Shown here piece by piece: positions 42,811-62,363 of a stretch of 64,000 nucleotides of DNA. The position numbers were made by a program, and so were the translations under genes. Source of the DNA: Myxococcales bacterium (GTDB lineage: Bacteria; Myxococcota_A; Polyangia; Polyangiales; Polyangiaceae); assembly GCA_947473045.1 (NCBI GenBank), contig CANJCO010000001.1, positions 62,001-126,000 on the forward strand, given 5' to 3'. How positions within the stretch are numbered: position 1 is the stretch's first letter; each line of letters opens with the position of its first letter. The notes beneath the pieces are model-generated. The model saw only the letters and a program-made list of their open reading frames with translations, was not told the origin of the DNA and ran no database searches.

Positions 42811-44529
42811 ATGAGCCGCCTGTCCAAACCCAGCCATGCGTGGCTCGCCGTCGCGATTCTGCTCGCGGGCGCCCTCGTGTTTCTGCCCGCGGTGCGCGCG
42901 CCTCTGTGGCTCGACGATTACGTGCAGGCCTCGATGGTGGACGGCTCGTTTCCGGCGGCCAGGGGGCCGACGGGGCTGTACGATTTTGTTGGCGACGACG
43001 ATCGCAAGGCGCTCATGGACCGCGGCATTTTGCCGTGGTGGAGCAATCCCCGGCTCAAGGTGCGGTTCTTCAGGCCGCTGTCGAGCGCGCTGCTGTTCGC
43101 GGAGCACCGCCTGACGTCCCACGCGCCGCTGCCGCTTCATCTCGCCTCGCTCGCGTGGTGGGCGGCGGCTGTGCTCGCAGCGCGCAGCCTCTACCGGCGC
43201 GTGCTGCCCGAGCGGGCTTCGACCCTCGCGATGGCGGTGTTCGCGCTCGCGCCATGCCACGCACTGCCCCTCGCGTGGGTCGCCAACCGCGAAGTGCTGA
43301 TGTCGCTGGCGTTTGGCGCCGCGGCGCTGGGACTGCTGGCGCGCTCGCGGACGGCGCCGACGTGGGGCGGCTTCCTTGGCGCGACCGCGCTGTTTTCGCT
43401 GTCGCTGGCGAGCGGCGAGTACGGGGTGTGCTTTGGCGGCTACGTGCTCGCGTTCGAGCTTTCGCGGCCCGGTTCGCGCTGGAAGAAGCTCCCCGGACTG
43501 CTCGCGTTCGCGCTCCCGGCCGCCGCTTACCTGTCCGTGCGCGCCGCGCTGCACTACGGCGCGGCGGGGTCGGGGTTTTATCATGATCCGCTGCGCACCC
43601 CGGGCGCGTTCCTGCAGGCCGCGCCGCGGAGGCTGATCACCCTGCTGGCCGACGGATGGCTCACCGCGAACGCGGACGACTGGGCCTCGGAGGCGCCGCT
43701 GTGGCTGCTCGCGGCGCTGCTGGCCTGCGCCCTGCTGTTCTTCGCGCGACCGCTGCGCACGGCGATGCGCGCGGCCGGCGCGCCCGCCCAGCGCGATCTG
43801 CGCTGGCTCGCGGCGGGCTCGTTGCTGGCGCTCGTGCCCGTGCTCGCGGCCGCGCCGTCTTCCCGATTGATCGCGGTGAGCGTGCTGGGGACTGCCCCGC
43901 TGGTGGCGGCGCTCATCGACCACGCGTGGCTGTCCGGCGCGGCCTCGGTGCTCCCCGATCAGCGCTTGCGCCTCGCTGCGATCGCGCTTGGATTTCTGCA
44001 TCTCGTGCATGGGCCGGCCATCTCGTGGTTTACGTCGCGCGCGCTCCAAGCCACGAGCGTCGAGTCGGCCGCGAGCGCCCGGTGGCTGCGCGATCGCATC
44101 GGCGACACTTCGGCCGCCAGCGTCGTGGTGACGCGCGCCGCGTGGCAGTCGGTCGGGCCGCTCGCGGTCGATCCGCCGAGGGTGCCGGCGCGCTGGCGCG
44201 TGCTCGTGATCGCGCGCCATGCCCTCGCTTTGCGCACAAATGACCGCACCCTCGAGGTCGTGATCCCCAGAGGCGAAGGCTTCTATCCTGCCGGCTCGAA
44301 CGATCTGTTTCGCAGCGACGACGACCCCATCCGCACCGGCGACGAGGTCGACGTGCCCGGCATGCACGTCACGGTCGTCGACGCCGGAATCAGCGGCCCG
44401 GCGCGCATGCGCTTCGTGTTCGACCGCAGCCTCGACGACCCTTCGCTCACGTGGGTCGCGCAGACCGCGGCGACGTACAAGTCGTCGTCGCCCCCGGGCG
44501 TGGGCTTCGGCGCGCGGCTCGATCCCTGA
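42811..44529 (+). CDS. GT-C-like multi-pass membrane glycosyltransferase
   Basis: About 572 residues, around ten transmembrane helices. The first loop has LWLDDYVQASM with the Asp-Asp that many GT-C glycosyltransferases use as catalytic base. A soluble C-terminal domain of about 140 residues follows. Start is uncertain: ATG 42781 is ten codons longer. It could transfer a sugar from a polyprenyl phosphate donor to an envelope acceptor (inference). Divergent from DUF4920 and followed by the first 22-bp repeat array. Confidence 0.72.
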   Translation: MSRLSKPSHAWLAVAILLAGALVFLPAVRAPLWLDDYVQASMVDGSFPAARGPTGLYDFVGDDDRKALMDRGILPWWSNPRLKVRFFRPLSSALLFAEHRLTSHAPLPLHLASLAWWAAAVLAARSLYRRVLPERASTLAMAVFALAPCHALPLAWVANREVLMSLAFGAAALGLLARSRTAPTWGGFLGATALFSLSLASGEYGVCFGGYVLAFELSRPGSRWKKLPGLLAFALPAAAYLSVRAALHYGAAGSGFYHDPLRTPGAFLQAAPRRLITLLADGWLTANADDWASEAPLWLLAALLACALLFFARPLRTAMRAAGAPAQRDLRWLAAGSLLALVPVLAAAPSSRLIAVSVLGTAPLVAALIDHAWLSGAASVLPDQRLRLAAIALGFLHLVHGPAISWFTSRALQATSVESAASARWLRDRIGDTSAASVVVTRAAWQSVGPLAVDPPRVPARWRVLVIARHALALRTNDRTLEVVIPRGEGFYPAGSNDLFRSDDDPIRTGDEVDVPGMHVTVVDAGISGPARMRFVFDRSLDDPSLTWVAQTAATYKSSSPPGVGFGARLDP

Positions 44530-44540
44530 CGCCCGCCCGG

Positions 44541-44624
44541 TGTTCAGGCGTGTGAACATGGGTGTTCAGGCGTGTGAACATGGGTGTTCAGGCGTGTGAA
44601 CATGGGTGTTCAGGCGTGTGAACA
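44541..44624 (+). repeat. Palindromic 22-bp-period repeat array, 4 copies
   Basis: Four identical copies of TGTTCAGGCGTGTGAACA at 44541, 44563, 44585 and 44607, separated by TGGG. Each copy carries 6-bp inverted arms (TGTTCA/TGAACA) around GGCGTG, so it can form a hairpin or bind a dimeric protein. It lies after the GT-C gene and before the DUF1275 gene. The same unit recurs as a 3-copy array at 48741. Confidence 0.9.
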
Positions 44625-44726
44625 TGGTTTGCGGGGCGCTTGAAGGTTGCGCGCGATGGCCCCGACAGATCGCTGGCACGAGGCCCGACCCGGGTTCATA
44701 GTGCGACCGGCTCGCCCGGGACTTCT

Positions 44727-45512
44727 ATGTTTCTCCACTCCGCCTCTGCCACGTCCATGCACTCGCGGCGCGATCTCGTGCTCGCGGCCTGCCTCGCGGC
44801 GACGGCCGGCTTCGTCAATTCTGCGGGGTTTTTGCTGATCGGCTCGTTTACCTCGCATGTCACCGGCAACGTCGGCCGGCTCGCCAGCGATCTCGCCGCC
44901 GGGGAGCTGAACGCCGCGGCTGCGGCCGCCACGATGGTCGCGTCGTTTTTCGGCGGAGCGTTCGTCTCGAGCGTGGCCGTCGAGAGTCAGTTCTACCGGT
45001 CCCGCCGCCACGCGTGCGCGGTCGCGCTGGGCCTCGAGGCGGCCCTGCTGCTCTTGTTCATGGTGCTCGCGCGTCTCACGCAACCGAGCCATCCGCGCCT
45101 GCAGGACGCCGAGGCGCTGCTGCTGTGCGCGGCGATGGGCATTCAAAACGGGCTGGTGACCCGCACGTCCCGGTCGGTGGTTCGATCGACGCACCTCACC
45201 GGCGCGATCACCGATCTCGGCATCGAGGCGGCCCGCTGGTTTCGCTTTGGGCGCGGTCAGCTCGGCGCGCGCGTTCACCTGCCGCTCGCCACGGGCGCGA
45301 ATCTGCCCGAGCGGCCGTCGGCGCACCGCATCGCCATGTCGGCGATCCTCGTGGCCGGCTTCATGGGCGGGGGCATCGCCGGCGCGGTGGCCGCGCTTCA
45401 CCTGCGCCACCTGACGATGCTGCTGCCGGTCGTCGCGCTCCTCGCGACCGCCGCGTTCGCGGCGTGGCCGGGCAGGGAGCCCGCGGGCCAGTCCGGCGAG
45501 CCGGCCCCGTAG
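44727..45512 (+). CDS. DUF1275 (YoaK-family) membrane protein
   Basis: About 261 residues with six or so hydrophobic helices. Family marks are LAATAGFVNSAGFLLIGSFTSHVTGNV and the repeated LLCAAMGIQNGLVTR and STHLTGAITDLG. Function of YoaK/DUF1275 is unknown. ATG 44727 is used, and ATG 44757 is possible. It lies between the two repeat arrays. Confidence 0.85.
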   Translation: MFLHSASATSMHSRRDLVLAACLAATAGFVNSAGFLLIGSFTSHVTGNVGRLASDLAAGELNAAAAAATMVASFFGGAFVSSVAVESQFYRSRRHACAVALGLEAALLLLFMVLARLTQPSHPRLQDAEALLLCAAMGIQNGLVTRTSRSVVRSTHLTGAITDLGIEAARWFRFGRGQLGARVHLPLATGANLPERPSAHRIAMSAILVAGFMGGGIAGAVAALHLRHLTMLLPVVALLATAAFAAWPGREPAGQSGEPAP

Positions 45513-45611
45513 CGCCCTGTCACCAAAGTCTCCGCTACCGGGAACTTGGCCTCGCCGGCGCTGTCGCACGACATAGCAACGCCGCGAGCGTCGCGCCGGA
45601 GCCTCTCCACC

Positions 45612-48600
45612 ATGCCGCTGAACTATGCTCATTATGCTGCCTTTGGCGCGGTCGCCCTCTTCGTCGGAGGCGTCGTGGCGGCTGCCCGCCATAACGCCGA
45701 GCAGCGTGAGCAGGCTGCTCCGCCGAAACCGGCGTCGATCGTGCCGATGGCGTGGCCGCGCGACGTGCTCGTGACGCCGCGCCAGAAGCCGTCGCCGCCG
45801 GTGAGCCTCACTGCTTCCGACGGCACGGGGCTCAAGCTGCTGAGGCTCGACGCGCGCGCGGTGCTGTCGGACCCGCTCGCGTTCACCGAGCTTCATCTGA
45901 CGTTCCAAAACCCCCGTCAGCAGACGATCGAAGGCCAGTTCTCGATCACGCTTCCGCCCGGAGCCACCGTCAGCCGGTTCGCCATGAAGGTCGGCGACGT
46001 GTGGCAGGAGGGCGAGATGGTGGAGCGCCAGGCGGCGCGCCGAGCGTACGAAGACTTTCTGCATCGCAAGCAGGATCCGGCGCTCCTTGAGCAGGCCGCC
46101 GGCAACCAGTTTCAGGCGCGCGTTTTTCCCATCCCCGCCACCGGCGTCAAAGAGCTCATCGTCGCCTTCACGCAGGAGCTCGCGGGCCGCGCCGATTACG
46201 CGCTGCCGCTGCGCGGAATGCCGGAGATCGCGCAGCTCGACGTGGCGCTGTCGCTCGCGAGCTCGGGGGCCGTCGCCCGGCAGCTCCATCAGCAGCGGGT
46301 CGTGCCCACCGAAGACTTCGTCTACGAGCCTGCCGCCGCCCGTCCTACGCAGGGGCTCCGAAGCGGGGAGCTGGTGCTCGCGCGCGTTTACCCGGTGATC
46401 GATGACGCGCCCGATCCGATGACCTCCGCGGTGGTGCTCTTCGACACGAGCGCGTCGCGCGCGCTTGGTTTCGAGGACCAGCTCGAGCTGCTCGCGAGCT
46501 TCGCGCGCGACCTCGCCCTGCGCGGCGGACCGCAGACGCCGCTGACCGTGGCGTGCTTCGACCAGGCCGTGACCGAAGTGTTCTCGGGAAACGCATCCGA
46601 GTTCGGCGCACCCTCGCTCGAGCGCATTCGGCAGCGCGGCGCGCTCGGGGCCTCGAATCTGGGGGCCGCGCTCGCATGGGCCGGTCCGCAAGCGAAGGCG
46701 CGCGGACTCAGTCGCGTGGTGTTCATGACCGACGGCGTGCCCACCGCGGGCGAGACAGAGGCCGACAAACTCGCGGCCGTCGCCGCAGACCTCAAGAGCG
46801 CCGGCGTCTCCCGCCTTGACGCCCTCGCGGTTGGCGGGCTCCGCGACGAGGCGCTGCTGCGACGGCTCGTCACTTCCGGGCTGCCCCGCGACGGGGCGGT
46901 CCTCGATGGTCGCCTCTCGCCCGCGTCGATCGCGCGCCGCCTCGGCGCCGCTACGCGCTCGCACCTCGCCGTCACGGTTCCCGGAGCGACGTGGTCGTTT
47001 CCTAAGGAGCTTGGCGGCGTGCAGTCGGGTGACGAAGTGCTCGTCTACGCGCAAGTGCCCGAAGGTCAGCCAGTGAGCGTGTCGGTGGGCGGCGCTCCGC
47101 TCAAGCTCGACCTCGAGAGCGTCGATCGCCCGCTGCTCGAGCGGGCGTTTACGCAGGCAAAGATCGCCTCGCTCCTCGACGCCGAGCGCCACGGCGCGCC
47201 CGCCTCCACCAAAGCCGCGATCGTCGACCTGTCGCTGCGCTACCGGGTGATGAGCCCCTACACTTCGCTGCTCGTGCTCGAGACTGACGCTGACTACGCG
47301 CGGTTCAAAATCGATCGAAACGCGCTCGCCGATTTGATGGTCGTCGACGGCGGACGACTGATCGCGAAAAAGCGAGCCTCGGCGCGCGACTTTCGTCTGC
47401 CACCGAAGGGTGAGGCCGCGGAGCGGGCCGGCGAGCAGGAGGGCGTCGCTCGATCCGCGTCGGCCGCGTCGGCCGCGGCGGCTGACGATCCGACGAGCGC
47501 CCGTGGCAACGCGTGGGGCGAGGCCATCGGAGACGCGCTCGGCGCGGGCGGACTCGGCCTCTCCGGCGCCGGCGAAGGTGGCGGAGGGGCTGCTGGCGAA
47601 GACGGCGAAATCGGACTGGGCGTCGTCGGGGCCTTGACCGCCGGGGGCGGCTCCGCGGGCCCCGGGGCACCTGCTGCCACTGCAACGCAAGGGTCAGCAC
47701 AAGGCTTCGGGTCGGGCCACGGCCGACTCCTCGGCGCGCCGTCGGGACTCATCGAACCCGGTCCGGAGGCAGACGAGCGGCCGGCCCGCGCGATCGAAAA
47801 GCCCCACGCGGCCGACCCCTACGAAGGCAGCTTCAAGACTGTAATGAACCTCCTCGCACGCCACGACGCCGCGGGAGCGCTCGCGGTGGCGCAGGCGTGG
47901 AACGTGCGCGCTCCGGGCGACGTGCTCGCGCTCGTGGCGCTGGGCGAAGCGCGCGAGGCGCTCGGCGACGCCGAAGGCGCGGCGCGGGCCTACGGCTCCC
48001 TGATCGACCTCTTCCCCGGGCGCGCCGATCTCCGCCGCTTCGCAGGCGCGCGCCTCGAGCGCGTACGCGAGTCGGGCGCGCTGGACCTCGCGCTCGACAC
48101 CTTCGAAAAGGCCGCCCTCGAGCGCCCCGACCACCCCGAGAGCCATCGGCTGCTCGCGTTTGCGTGGCTGCGAAAAGGCAACTGCGAAAAGGCGTTTGCC
48201 GCAGCGAAGCTCGGCGCGCAGAGGCAGTATCCGGCCGGTCGCTTCAGGGGCGCGGCGCGCATCTTGAGCGAAGATCTGGGGCTCATCGCCGCCGCGTGGA
48301 TCAAGGCCGAGCCCGCCCGCAGCGCCGAGATCGCCGCCATGCTACGCCTCGCCGGTGGCCAGCTCGAAAACGCGCCGTCGCTGCGCTTCGTGCTTAACTG
48401 GGAGACCGACGCCAACGACGTCGACTTTCACATCTTCGACGATCAGGGCGGGCATGCGTTCTACGCGACCCCTGCGCTTCCGAGCGGCGGCGAGCTCTAC
48501 GCCGACGTCACGACAGGCTACGGCCCGGAGTGCTTCACGATCCGCAACACGCCCGCCAAACGCCCGCGCCGCTACACCCTTCAGGCCAACTACTATTCGC

Positions 48601-48737
48601 GCGGCCCGATGGGCTACGGCATGGGCAAGCTCGAGATCATCGAGCACGACGGCCGAGGCGGACTCACCTTCGAAGACCGCCCGTTCGTCGTGCAGACCGA
48701 TCGCGCGTTCGTCGACCTGGGATCGGTGACGCGCTAG
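45612..48737 (+). CDS. VIT - vWA - DUF2135 membrane-anchored protein
   Basis: 1041 residues. N-terminal transmembrane helix (about 7-25), VIT domain (about 60-190; EGQFSITLPPGATVSRFAMKVG), vWA domain from about 270 with MIDAS DTSAS at 278, a Gly/Ala-rich hinge (about 620-720), TPR-like helices (about 740-900) and a C-terminal DUF2135 domain (WETDANDVDFHIFD, TGYGPECF). VIT-vWA proteins are eukaryote-like adhesive or complex-assembly modules also found in bacteria. Extracytoplasmic calcium- or protein-binding is inferred. Ends 3 bp before the second repeat array. Confidence 0.85.
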   Translation: MPLNYAHYAAFGAVALFVGGVVAAARHNAEQREQAAPPKPASIVPMAWPRDVLVTPRQKPSPPVSLTASDGTGLKLLRLDARAVLSDPLAFTELHLTFQNPRQQTIEGQFSITLPPGATVSRFAMKVGDVWQEGEMVERQAARRAYEDFLHRKQDPALLEQAAGNQFQARVFPIPATGVKELIVAFTQELAGRADYALPLRGMPEIAQLDVALSLASSGAVARQLHQQRVVPTEDFVYEPAAARPTQGLRSGELVLARVYPVIDDAPDPMTSAVVLFDTSASRALGFEDQLELLASFARDLALRGGPQTPLTVACFDQAVTEVFSGNASEFGAPSLERIRQRGALGASNLGAALAWAGPQAKARGLSRVVFMTDGVPTAGETEADKLAAVAADLKSAGVSRLDALAVGGLRDEALLRRLVTSGLPRDGAVLDGRLSPASIARRLGAATRSHLAVTVPGATWSFPKELGGVQSGDEVLVYAQVPEGQPVSVSVGGAPLKLDLESVDRPLLERAFTQAKIASLLDAERHGAPASTKAAIVDLSLRYRVMSPYTSLLVLETDADYARFKIDRNALADLMVVDGGRLIAKKRASARDFRLPPKGEAAERAGEQEGVARSASAASAAAADDPTSARGNAWGEAIGDALGAGGLGLSGAGEGGGGAAGEDGEIGLGVVGALTAGGGSAGPGAPAATATQGSAQGFGSGHGRLLGAPSGLIEPGPEADERPARAIEKPHAADPYEGSFKTVMNLLARHDAAGALAVAQAWNVRAPGDVLALVALGEAREALGDAEGAARAYGSLIDLFPGRADLRRFAGARLERVRESGALDLALDTFEKAALERPDHPESHRLLAFAWLRKGNCEKAFAAAKLGAQRQYPAGRFRGAARILSEDLGLIAAAWIKAEPARSAEIAAMLRLAGGQLENAPSLRFVLNWETDANDVDFHIFDDQGGHAFYATPALPSGGELYADVTTGYGPECFTIRNTPAKRPRRYTLQANYYSRGPMGYGMGKLEIIEHDGRGGLTFEDRPFVVQTDRAFVDLGSVTR

Positions 48738-48740
48738 TCA

Positions 48741-48802
48741 CGTTCAGGCGTGTGAACACGCGTGTTCAGGCGTGTGAACACGGGTGTTCAGGCGTGTGAA
48801 CA
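48741..48802 (+). repeat. Palindromic 22-bp-period repeat array, 3 copies
   Basis: Copies at 48741 (first base C), 48763 and 48785 of TGTTCAGGCGTGTGAACA with 4-nt spacers. It lies between the VIT-vWA gene and the end of the convergent acyltransferase gene. Same orientation and period as the array at 44541. Confidence 0.9.
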
Positions 48803-48807
48803 TCCAT

Positions 48808-50073
48808 TTAGGCGGCGACGCGCGCCCGAAGGCTCATCGCGGGCTTTTCGATGAGCACGTGCAGTACGTATGACAGGGCGAGCGACGCGCCCATCGCGAG
48901 CGCCACTGCGCTCACCCACACGGCCTCGACCGGCACCTGCGCCCGGATGAGCGCGCGGGAGGCCGGCGCGACGACCCCGTGAATCAGCGGGATGTGCACC
49001 AGATACACGCCGTAGCCGAGGGTCGCGATGCGCCGAAAGACGTGCGCGGACAGAAAGCGGTGCACCACGCCGTCGCCGTGCAGCAGCAGCAGCCCGACGC
49101 ACACGTACAGGACCGACGTGACGGTTCCCCAGGCGTAGATGTGCGCGAGCTGCAGGTCGCCGCCGCCAAAGAGGGCCGGCTGAAGCAAAAACCACAGGCA
49201 GGCGAGCGCCGGCAACTGAAGCGCCGCGCGGTTGCGCGGGGACTGCAGCCAGGGGCCCACGCGCGCCCCGTGCCGCTGATGAATGAGCGCGAGGATGATG
49301 CCCGCGAACAGGGTGTCGAAGCGCGTGTACGTGCGAAAATAGATGGCGCCGTAGAGCTCCAGATCGTTCCACGGCGCGCCCTTGTAAAAGATGACGAGCC
49401 GCACCACGAGCGCGCTCAGCCACAGCGCCCCGAGCAGCCCGAACCGCGCCCTGTCGCCTTTCATGCGCGCGAGCGCGAAGAACAGCAGCGGCACCACCAG
49501 ATAAAACTGCTCCTCGAGGGCCAGCGACCAGCCCCAGAACATGACCACCTCGGTGGGCAGCAGCGGCAGGAAGTTCGTGAGATACGCGAGCTCCATCGGC
49601 AGATGCCTGCGCTGCGCAGCCGTGAGGCCGCGAATCAACGCGAGCGCCGCGATCACCACGTAATAGGCGGGAAACGTGCGCAGCATTCGCCGCAGGTAAA
49701 ACCGTCGCAGCAGCTGCGTGCGCTCGCGAAACGTTGCGCGCGCCGGCGCTCCGTCGGCTCCCGCCGCGTCGGCGTCGCCCACCGATCGCAGCAGGATCGA
49801 GCCGATGAGAAAGCCGCTGAGCACAAAGAAGCAGTCCATCCCAAAGAAGATCGTCATCGAGCCCTGCACCCACGTCTGCGTCAGCGGCAGCCGCTCGATG
49901 AACGCGAGCACTTCGGTCACGTGGTACTGCACCACGGTGATCACGGCGACGACGCGCAGCCCGTGCAGGGTCGGGTAGCGGTTGTCGAGCAAGTCGAGCG
50001 ACAGCGCGCGCGCGAGCGAAAAGGGGCGGCCCGGATCGGGATTGGCGCTCGTTTGTGCGGCCTCGGCGGTCAT
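48808..50073 (-). CDS. Membrane acyltransferase, acyltransferase 3 family
   Basis: 421 residues, about ten transmembrane helices. It has the active-site histidine in VVQYHVTEV and the SGFLIGS and LRRMLRTFPAYYV motifs of OafA/YrhL-type O-acyltransferases. These acetylate or acylate polysaccharides and related envelope molecules. Acceptor unknown. Divergent from the TonB/TBDT gene over 144 bp that should hold both promoters. Confidence 0.9.
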   Translation of the reverse strand: MTAEAAQTSANPDPGRPFSLARALSLDLLDNRYPTLHGLRVVAVITVVQYHVTEVLAFIERLPLTQTWVQGSMTIFFGMDCFFVLSGFLIGSILLRSVGDADAAGADGAPARATFRERTQLLRRFYLRRMLRTFPAYYVVIAALALIRGLTAAQRRHLPMELAYLTNFLPLLPTEVVMFWGWSLALEEQFYLVVPLLFFALARMKGDRARFGLLGALWLSALVVRLVIFYKGAPWNDLELYGAIYFRTYTRFDTLFAGIILALIHQRHGARVGPWLQSPRNRAALQLPALACLWFLLQPALFGGGDLQLAHIYAWGTVTSVLYVCVGLLLLHGDGVVHRFLSAHVFRRIATLGYGVYLVHIPLIHGVVAPASRALIRAQVPVEAVWVSAVALAMGASLALSYVLHVLIEKPAMSLRARVAA

Positions 50074-61841: not shown

Positions 61842-62363
61842 ATGATCGCCAAGCACGCTGTTGCCTTCGCCGCCTCCATCGTCGCTCTTGCGCTCGCCGC
61901 GCTGCCTGCCTCGCCGGCGGCCGCTTCGGGCGGATCGTGCAGCTCGAACTCGGACTGCGGACCGGGCGTCAGCTGTCGCAGCGGCAAGTGCGCCACGTCC
62001 ATGGGCGGTTCATGCAGCTCGAACTCCGATTGCGGCGGCGCGTCGTGCCGCAGCGGCAAATGCGCGAACGCGCCCGACGGCACGTGCAGCAGCAACTCCG
62101 ACTGCGGCGCGGGTTCTTGCCGCAGCGGCAAATGCGCGGCCGGCGGGGGCGGGTGCAGCAGCAACTCCGATTGCGGGCCGGGCGTCAGCTGCCGCAGCGG
62201 CGTGTGCGCCACGGCGCAGGGCGGCACGTGCAGCTCGAACTCCGACTGCGGCGGTGCGTCGTGCCGAAGCGGCAAGTGCGCCAACTCGCCCGACGGCACG
62301 TGCAGCTCGAACTCCGACTGCGGCAAGGGCTCGTGCCGCAGCGGCAAGTGCGCGATGAACTGA
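61842..62363 (+). CDS. Secreted cysteine-rich six-repeat protein
   Basis: 173 residues with AAGGA upstream. Signal peptide to about residue 28, then six repeats of about 24 residues of the form CSSNSDCG-x-SCRSGKCA, four cysteines each, giving 24 cysteines. Units 1-3 and 4-6 form a duplicated block with a 73-residue (219-bp) offset. The cysteine pattern suggests small disulfide-rich modules resembling eukaryotic extracellular repeats such as Dickkopf-type. Role unknown. Confidence 0.8.
   Translation: MIAKHAVAFAASIVALALAALPASPAAASGGSCSSNSDCGPGVSCRSGKCATSMGGSCSSNSDCGGASCRSGKCANAPDGTCSSNSDCGAGSCRSGKCAAGGGGCSSNSDCGPGVSCRSGVCATAQGGTCSSNSDCGGASCRSGKCANSPDGTCSSNSDCGKGSCRSGKCAMN
61929..62357 (+). repeat. 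Tandem DNA repeats encoding cysteine-rich modules
   Basis: Six related units within the preceding gene, each about 66-75 bp, with a higher-order duplication of the first three units (period 219 bp). The DNA similarity suggests recent amplification and possible copy-number instability. Confidence 0.8.

Follow-up and report, generated by a model that had tools for sequence, protein, structure and literature searches.

The closest described systems to the repeats presented in this study are elements of the REP/BIME type, which are short extragenic imperfect palindromes that occur in many grouped copies and are often species-specific (PMC3733652, PMC2817692). They are predominantly located downstream of genes, and a survey found REPs mostly between co-directional and convergent ORFs (PMC3733652). 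Their orientation alternates, a GTAG or CGTC tag is present at one foot of the palindrome, the copy number usually exceeds 100 per genome, and a cognate RAYT (Y1 transposase) is found (PMC3733652, PMC2817692). The CGTC-tagged REPs without a dedicated transposase are palindromic families that apparently lack a transposase of their own (PMC3733652). The TAACTGA sets of the Beggiatoaceae (PMC4679880) are likewise genome-wide short direct repeats with few copies each, a typical position relative to genes, and no functional theme; in contrast to the units described here, they are 7 nt long, non-palindromic, and mostly located upstream of start codons.

The window, i.e., the whole 64-kb stretch of DNA that was analyzed, belongs to a genome of 5.15 Mb (138 contigs, 99.98% complete) and contains two arrays of a short palindrome, which we call W1 and W2. 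The arrays of this genome are best explained as a species-restricted, REP/BIME-like, non-autonomous family of short palindromic repeats, a reading to which we assign a probability of roughly 55%. The family differs from the REP/BIME elements in its strictly head-to-tail arrangement with a fixed 22-bp period, in its 75 units, and in the lack of a foot tag and of a detectable RAYT. Because it departs from REPs in four respects (tag, alternation, copy number above 100, and RAYT), we use the term REP-like rather than REP. The apparent lack of its own transposase is shared with the CGTC-tagged REPs, whereas the tandem arrays and the absence of CGTC beside the palindrome are not.

Anatomy of the arrays and of the repeat unit

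Array W1 (44541..44624, plus strand) consists of four identical TGTTCAGGCGTGTGAACA units, which start at 44541, 44563, 44585, and 44607 and are separated by the 4-nt spacer TGGG. Array W2 (48741..48802, plus strand) consists of three units, which start at 48741, 48763, and 48785 and are separated by the spacers CGCG and CGGG; its first unit (beginning CGTTCAGG) has one mismatch to TGTTCAGGCGTGTGAACA, at position 1. TRF reports a period of 22 at 44539-44627 with 100% matches for W1 and at 48742-48802 with 97% matches for W2. A pattern search of the 64-kb window with up to three mismatches found no TGTTCAGGCGTGTGAACA match beyond these seven, all of which are on the plus strand with a 22-bp period; the chance expectation for even one match at this threshold is 0.01, and none of the shuffles reached seven. 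The pattern search and TRF confirm the counts, positions, shared orientation, and period given for both arrays by the first-pass annotation, together with its claim that the repeat occurs nowhere else in the window. A 72/216-bp tandem repeat of approximately six copies, possibly coding, was also detected by TRF at 61929-62355 of the window.

A genome-wide search for the unit, which had been proposed as a check, gave 76 matches at up to two mismatches, whereas the reversed control gave no match; the genome-wide palindrome counts rest on such pattern searches. The family comprises 75 units (a count that takes in a few more diverged copies at array edges) in 16 head-to-tail arrays of 3 to 8 units each, plus a few single copies; one contig, C102, breaks off within an array. 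All 16 arrays have a period of exactly 22 bp and one orientation within each array, and none has exactly two units. Contig 1 carries, besides W1 and W2, two further arrays, one at 133 kb and the other at 154 kb. A 48-kb segment of this contig (C1:106541-154277) thus holds four of the 16, which is tighter than random placement, for which we estimate approximately 0.01 such clusters.

The conserved unit is a 20-bp near-palindrome, RYGTTCAGGCGTGTGAACRY, and two further bases fill the 22-bp period. Among the inner 16 positions of the 75 aligned units, the two central ones vary in 5 to 6 units, and the others vary in at most one. The outermost arm bases are T or C (first) and A or G (last), the base before the 18-mer is G or A in every unit, and the base after it is T or C save at three array edges; the outer positions show transitions only, apart from G at those edges. 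Because the preceding base is always a purine and the following base is a pyrimidine except at the three edges, the unit is 20 bp and not 18 bp. The earlier description of a palindrome with 6-bp arms in a 22-bp repeat is therefore right in its period and too narrow in the extent of the recognized unit. A search of 456 kb of the genome for further 22-bp palindromic arrays returned members of the RYGTTCAGGCGTGTGAACRY family only. A 33-bp tandem palindrome at 209.7 kb of contig 1 was set aside as coding, and the GC skew of this contig was uninformative.

The two period-completing bases are near-constant within an array and differ among arrays (GG, GC, AC, CC, CG, and AG). The flanks past the 20-bp unit, compared across arrays, have nothing in common, and no fixed tag is present beside the palindrome, where the flank varies as YNNR without GTAG or CGTC. 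The left-flank dinucleotide equals the spacer of its own array at 19 of 30 positions, whereas permuted spacers would agree at 12.6 (p = 0.007); the right flank shows no such agreement. Nine tests were made in all, and the left-flank result would be borderline after correction, so that it is only suggestive; it suggests an amplified unit composed of 2 bp of left flank plus the palindrome. A target-site duplication was ruled out, since the match between flank and spacer is weak on the left and lacking on the right. As 22 mod 3 is 1, three units place a TGA in every frame of both strands, and no array leaves any of the six reading frames open.

Position behind genes and candidate functions

All 16 arrays are intergenic, and that of L031 overlaps the last codons of a gene. 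Eleven of the 16 begin no more than 22 bp from a stop codon (P of about 9e-9), where 9% is expected from the share of intergenic positions in a sample from the same genome. Seven of the 15 classifiable arrays lie between convergent genes (P = 0.001), which account for 12% of intergenic bases, the genes round the arrays being called with a simple codon-usage script and not a full gene finder; the L040 array lies in an apparently divergent region. This location, like the palindromic form and the dispersal of the units, resembles that of the REP/BIME elements (PMC3733652, PMC2817692). In the window, W1 starts 12 bp past the stop codon of the 42811-44529 gene, and W2 starts 4 bp past the stop of the VIT-vWA gene and ends 6 bp from that of a convergent acyltransferase gene. 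According to Pfam, the array-adjacent genes have no common function and include those for a Mur ligase, FtsH, a ribonucleotide reductase, and lipoproteins. The arrays thus occupy the ends of arbitrary genes with no conserved context, a pattern that the first-pass annotation had itself named as a refutation and that weakens two of its readings, namely, cassette boundaries and specific operators.

The RNA of W1 folds with -66.9 kcal/mol in its own orientation versus -41.8 kcal/mol for the opposite strand, and the stem of a single unit has -6.3 kcal/mol. Array orientation is that of the nearest upstream gene in approximately 9 of 11 unambiguous cases (our own count). These values, together with the location just after stop codons, speak for RNA elements at mRNA 3' ends, in which hairpins of the transcribed array protect the end or aid termination. 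Nevertheless, we consider this unlikely, given that two arrays (L031 and L036) are clearly in the opposite orientation, that some arrays adjoin ordinary terminator-like hairpins (L043), and that none of the Rfam families attains its gathering score at an array, the only sub-threshold hit being inside the DUF1275 gene. Directly past the arrays there is no T-run of the kind required of an intrinsic terminator. Unit variants break pairs (C-A and A-C), and the outer pairs show no compensatory changes; at the pair formed by the first and last arm bases, none of 20 changes gives C-G. The earlier suggestion of a termination element is accordingly supported neither by a T-tract nor by covariation.

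Because the outer-pair changes are never compensatory, recognition as DNA is favored, if the unit is recognized at all. One possible, though rather improbable, explanation is that the arrays are clustered sites for a dimeric DNA-binding protein with an architectural, segregation, or regulatory role, in which units two helical turns apart would allow the dimers to stack on one face. Such a protein would be consistent with the symmetric retention of purine and pyrimidine at the outer positions and with non-compensatory changes, which suit DNA contact rather than an RNA stem; the uniform period of all 16 arrays, the invariant core next to differing spacers, and the minimum of three units also agree with it. 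However, the arrays are located behind the stops of unrelated genes and not at promoters, and neither the sister species nor any other genome of the phylum sample has them, whereas DNA-binding proteins of this kind are usually conserved together with the sites they bind; no candidate for such a protein emerged. The parS-like clustered palindromes of segregation proteins have the form TGTT...AACA and are bound by a dimer, but they have another length and center, and the present family lies behind genes throughout the genome and is not conserved in relatives. The resemblance to parS and to Tn7 ends was rejected on the basis of length, center, orientation, and distribution.

The DUF1275 and VIT-vWA block

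W1 and W2 enclose the genes of a DUF1275 protein (44727..45512, plus strand; PF06912, E = 2e-34) and of a VIT and vWA domain protein (45612..48737, plus strand; PF08487, E = 2.9e-21). The block is preceded by the gene of a predicted membrane protein of 572 aa (42811..44529, plus strand), which is glycosyltransferase-like by eye and has no Pfam hit, and is followed by the acyltransferase gene (48808..50073, minus strand; PF01757, E = 7e-24). These two flanking genes are convergent neighbors in the best loci of 20 of 29 relatives, and their aligned ends are less than 130 bp apart in 16 of those 20. In the source genome, the DUF1275 and VIT-vWA genes separate the pair, with a directly oriented array at each junction. 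Because most of these relatives keep the pair convergent and it is split here, the block is, on the comparison of gene orders, best read as a lineage-specific insertion, and the earlier observation that two arrays enclose a two-gene block is borne out in this form.

Beside the L045 array, two lipoprotein-like genes (L045:4146-6613) are missing between the orthologous neighbors in the sister species (G001). Gene gain next to an array is thus seen at W1/W2 and at L045, and it is not seen at the array of L038. The two positive cases, with directly oriented arrays on both sides of the window block, would fit boundaries of mobile gene cassettes, with the asymmetric 6-bp center as the substrate of a site-specific recombinase. 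We regard this as very unlikely, since the L038 array is without gene gain, the spacers of W1 and W2 differ, the 7-bp arms are short for tyrosine recombinases, and nothing ties a recombinase to the arrays; a Pfam scan of the called array-flanking genes found none other than an IS3-type rve fragment, which lies at a distance of 0.7 kb from the L042 array. Moreover, two arrays within 4.2 kb of each other are expected by chance in approximately one-fifth of genomes at such a density (our own estimate). Boundary marking does not hold as a general role because most arrays bracket no cassette; the other 14 lie beside unrelated genes, and most of them are unpaired.

Direct repeats like those on the two sides of the block would be produced by integration through a single crossover between two arrays. 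A search for the donor site found none, and the neighbors of the VIT-vWA gene in G001 are not near any array of the source genome. Because the spacers differ and no donor was found, single-crossover integration is a step that we only infer.

Distribution, copying enzyme, and origin of the family

The arrays are absent from all 59 near relatives, including the sister species G001, which is the only available congener, and among 377 Myxococcota genomes searched they occur in none but the source genome. A scan of approximately 85,000 species detected no further array family of the RYGTTCAGGCGTGTGAACRY kind; it gave three stretches, of which one is unrelated, one is a locus of the type found in G029 (see below), and one is L108. 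The latter (L108:6241-6278 and around; QMMC01000283.1, a deltaproteobacterial MAG) contains four GT[T/A]CAGACGTCTG[A/T]AC palindromes (GTTCAGACGTCTGAAC-type) within approximately 80 bp, immediately 5' of a possible start codon. No viral contigs carrying the family were found, and no literature on the palindrome sequence was found. The family appears to be undescribed, as had been surmised.

At L038, the convergent genes flanking the array are syntenic in G001 (L191), where their stops are approximately 25 bp apart with no array between them, i.e., the site is empty. The difference reflects either a gain in the lineage of the source genome or a loss in G001, and the absence of the arrays everywhere else favors a gain. 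Just behind ftsH, where the source genome has an array, G001 carries two copies of a different repeat, GTCATCCTGAGGCGGAGCCGAAGGACC (G001:C294; L186:5503-5625), which was not found in a local sample of the source genome. The gene of an AMP-binding enzyme by the L036 array (L036:2378-3892) is in the opposite orientation in G001 (L188/L189) relative to the conserved neighbors.

No RAYT/Y1 transposase was found in the 99.98%-complete source genome, either by PF01797, for which control genomes were positive, or by protein search (P0001). RAYT-like proteins are encoded in 25 of 108 genomes of the same taxonomic family. In one of these, G029, which belongs to another genus, two copies of TGTTCAGGCGCCTGGAC with a period of 22 are located approximately 50 bp 5' of a RAYT-like gene, and this tandem palindrome is the only lead to an enzyme. 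Alternatively, the arrays could be REPs of the classical type, mobilized by a resident RAYT whose gene was not assembled; both the G029 locus and the frequency of RAYT-like proteins in the taxonomic family point in this direction. However, the completeness of the genome with two negative searches, the lack of dispersal of the G029 palindrome within its own genome, and the absence of a GTAG/CGTC tag make this highly improbable. Four GGGTGGCGGCCGCCACCC palindromes are found just upstream of a RAYT-like gene in another genus (G083:C65; L101:1234-1424), and two copies related to GGGTGGCGGCCGCCACCC are found near another RAYT (L073).

For the preferred reading, that of a REP/BIME-like family, the following course may be proposed. 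The 20-bp near-palindrome RYGTTCAGGCGTGTGAACRY has been copied to many places, as the same core between unrelated flanks shows. The copying was probably done by an HUH-type activity that acted in trans and has since been lost or was left unassembled. Copies lie almost exclusively behind stop codons, where they presumably do the least damage and would be retained for that reason. Each copy would have grown head to tail into 3 to 8 units of 22 bp (the 20-bp core plus 2 bp), and the added 2 bp probably came from the DNA on the left of the copy, as the match between the array-constant spacers and the left flank suggests. The identical arrays would then offer homology for rearrangement, which is a likely route for the DUF1275 and VIT-vWA block between its directly oriented arrays. 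When transcribed, usually in the orientation of the upstream gene, an array can be predicted to fold into a long hairpin, and an effect on the mRNA 3' end is possible.

Simple insertion and slippage do not account for the perfect 22-bp period or for the missing two-unit arrays. Another explanation, which is tentative and rather improbable, is an undescribed type of mobile palindrome, in which a 20-bp sequence seeds sites behind stops without a RAYT and amplifies in exact two-turn steps, taking two local bases each time; arrays of at least three units would close all six frames and later serve as joints for recombination through which new genes are acquired.

The arrays are a clean example of repeats that one bacterial lineage has and its nearest sampled relative lacks, and the core, the spacer, and the empty site can each be read separately. 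From this family it could be learned by what steps short palindromes spread and multiply when no known transposase is at hand, and whether gene gain is promoted by identical arrays at 3' ends.
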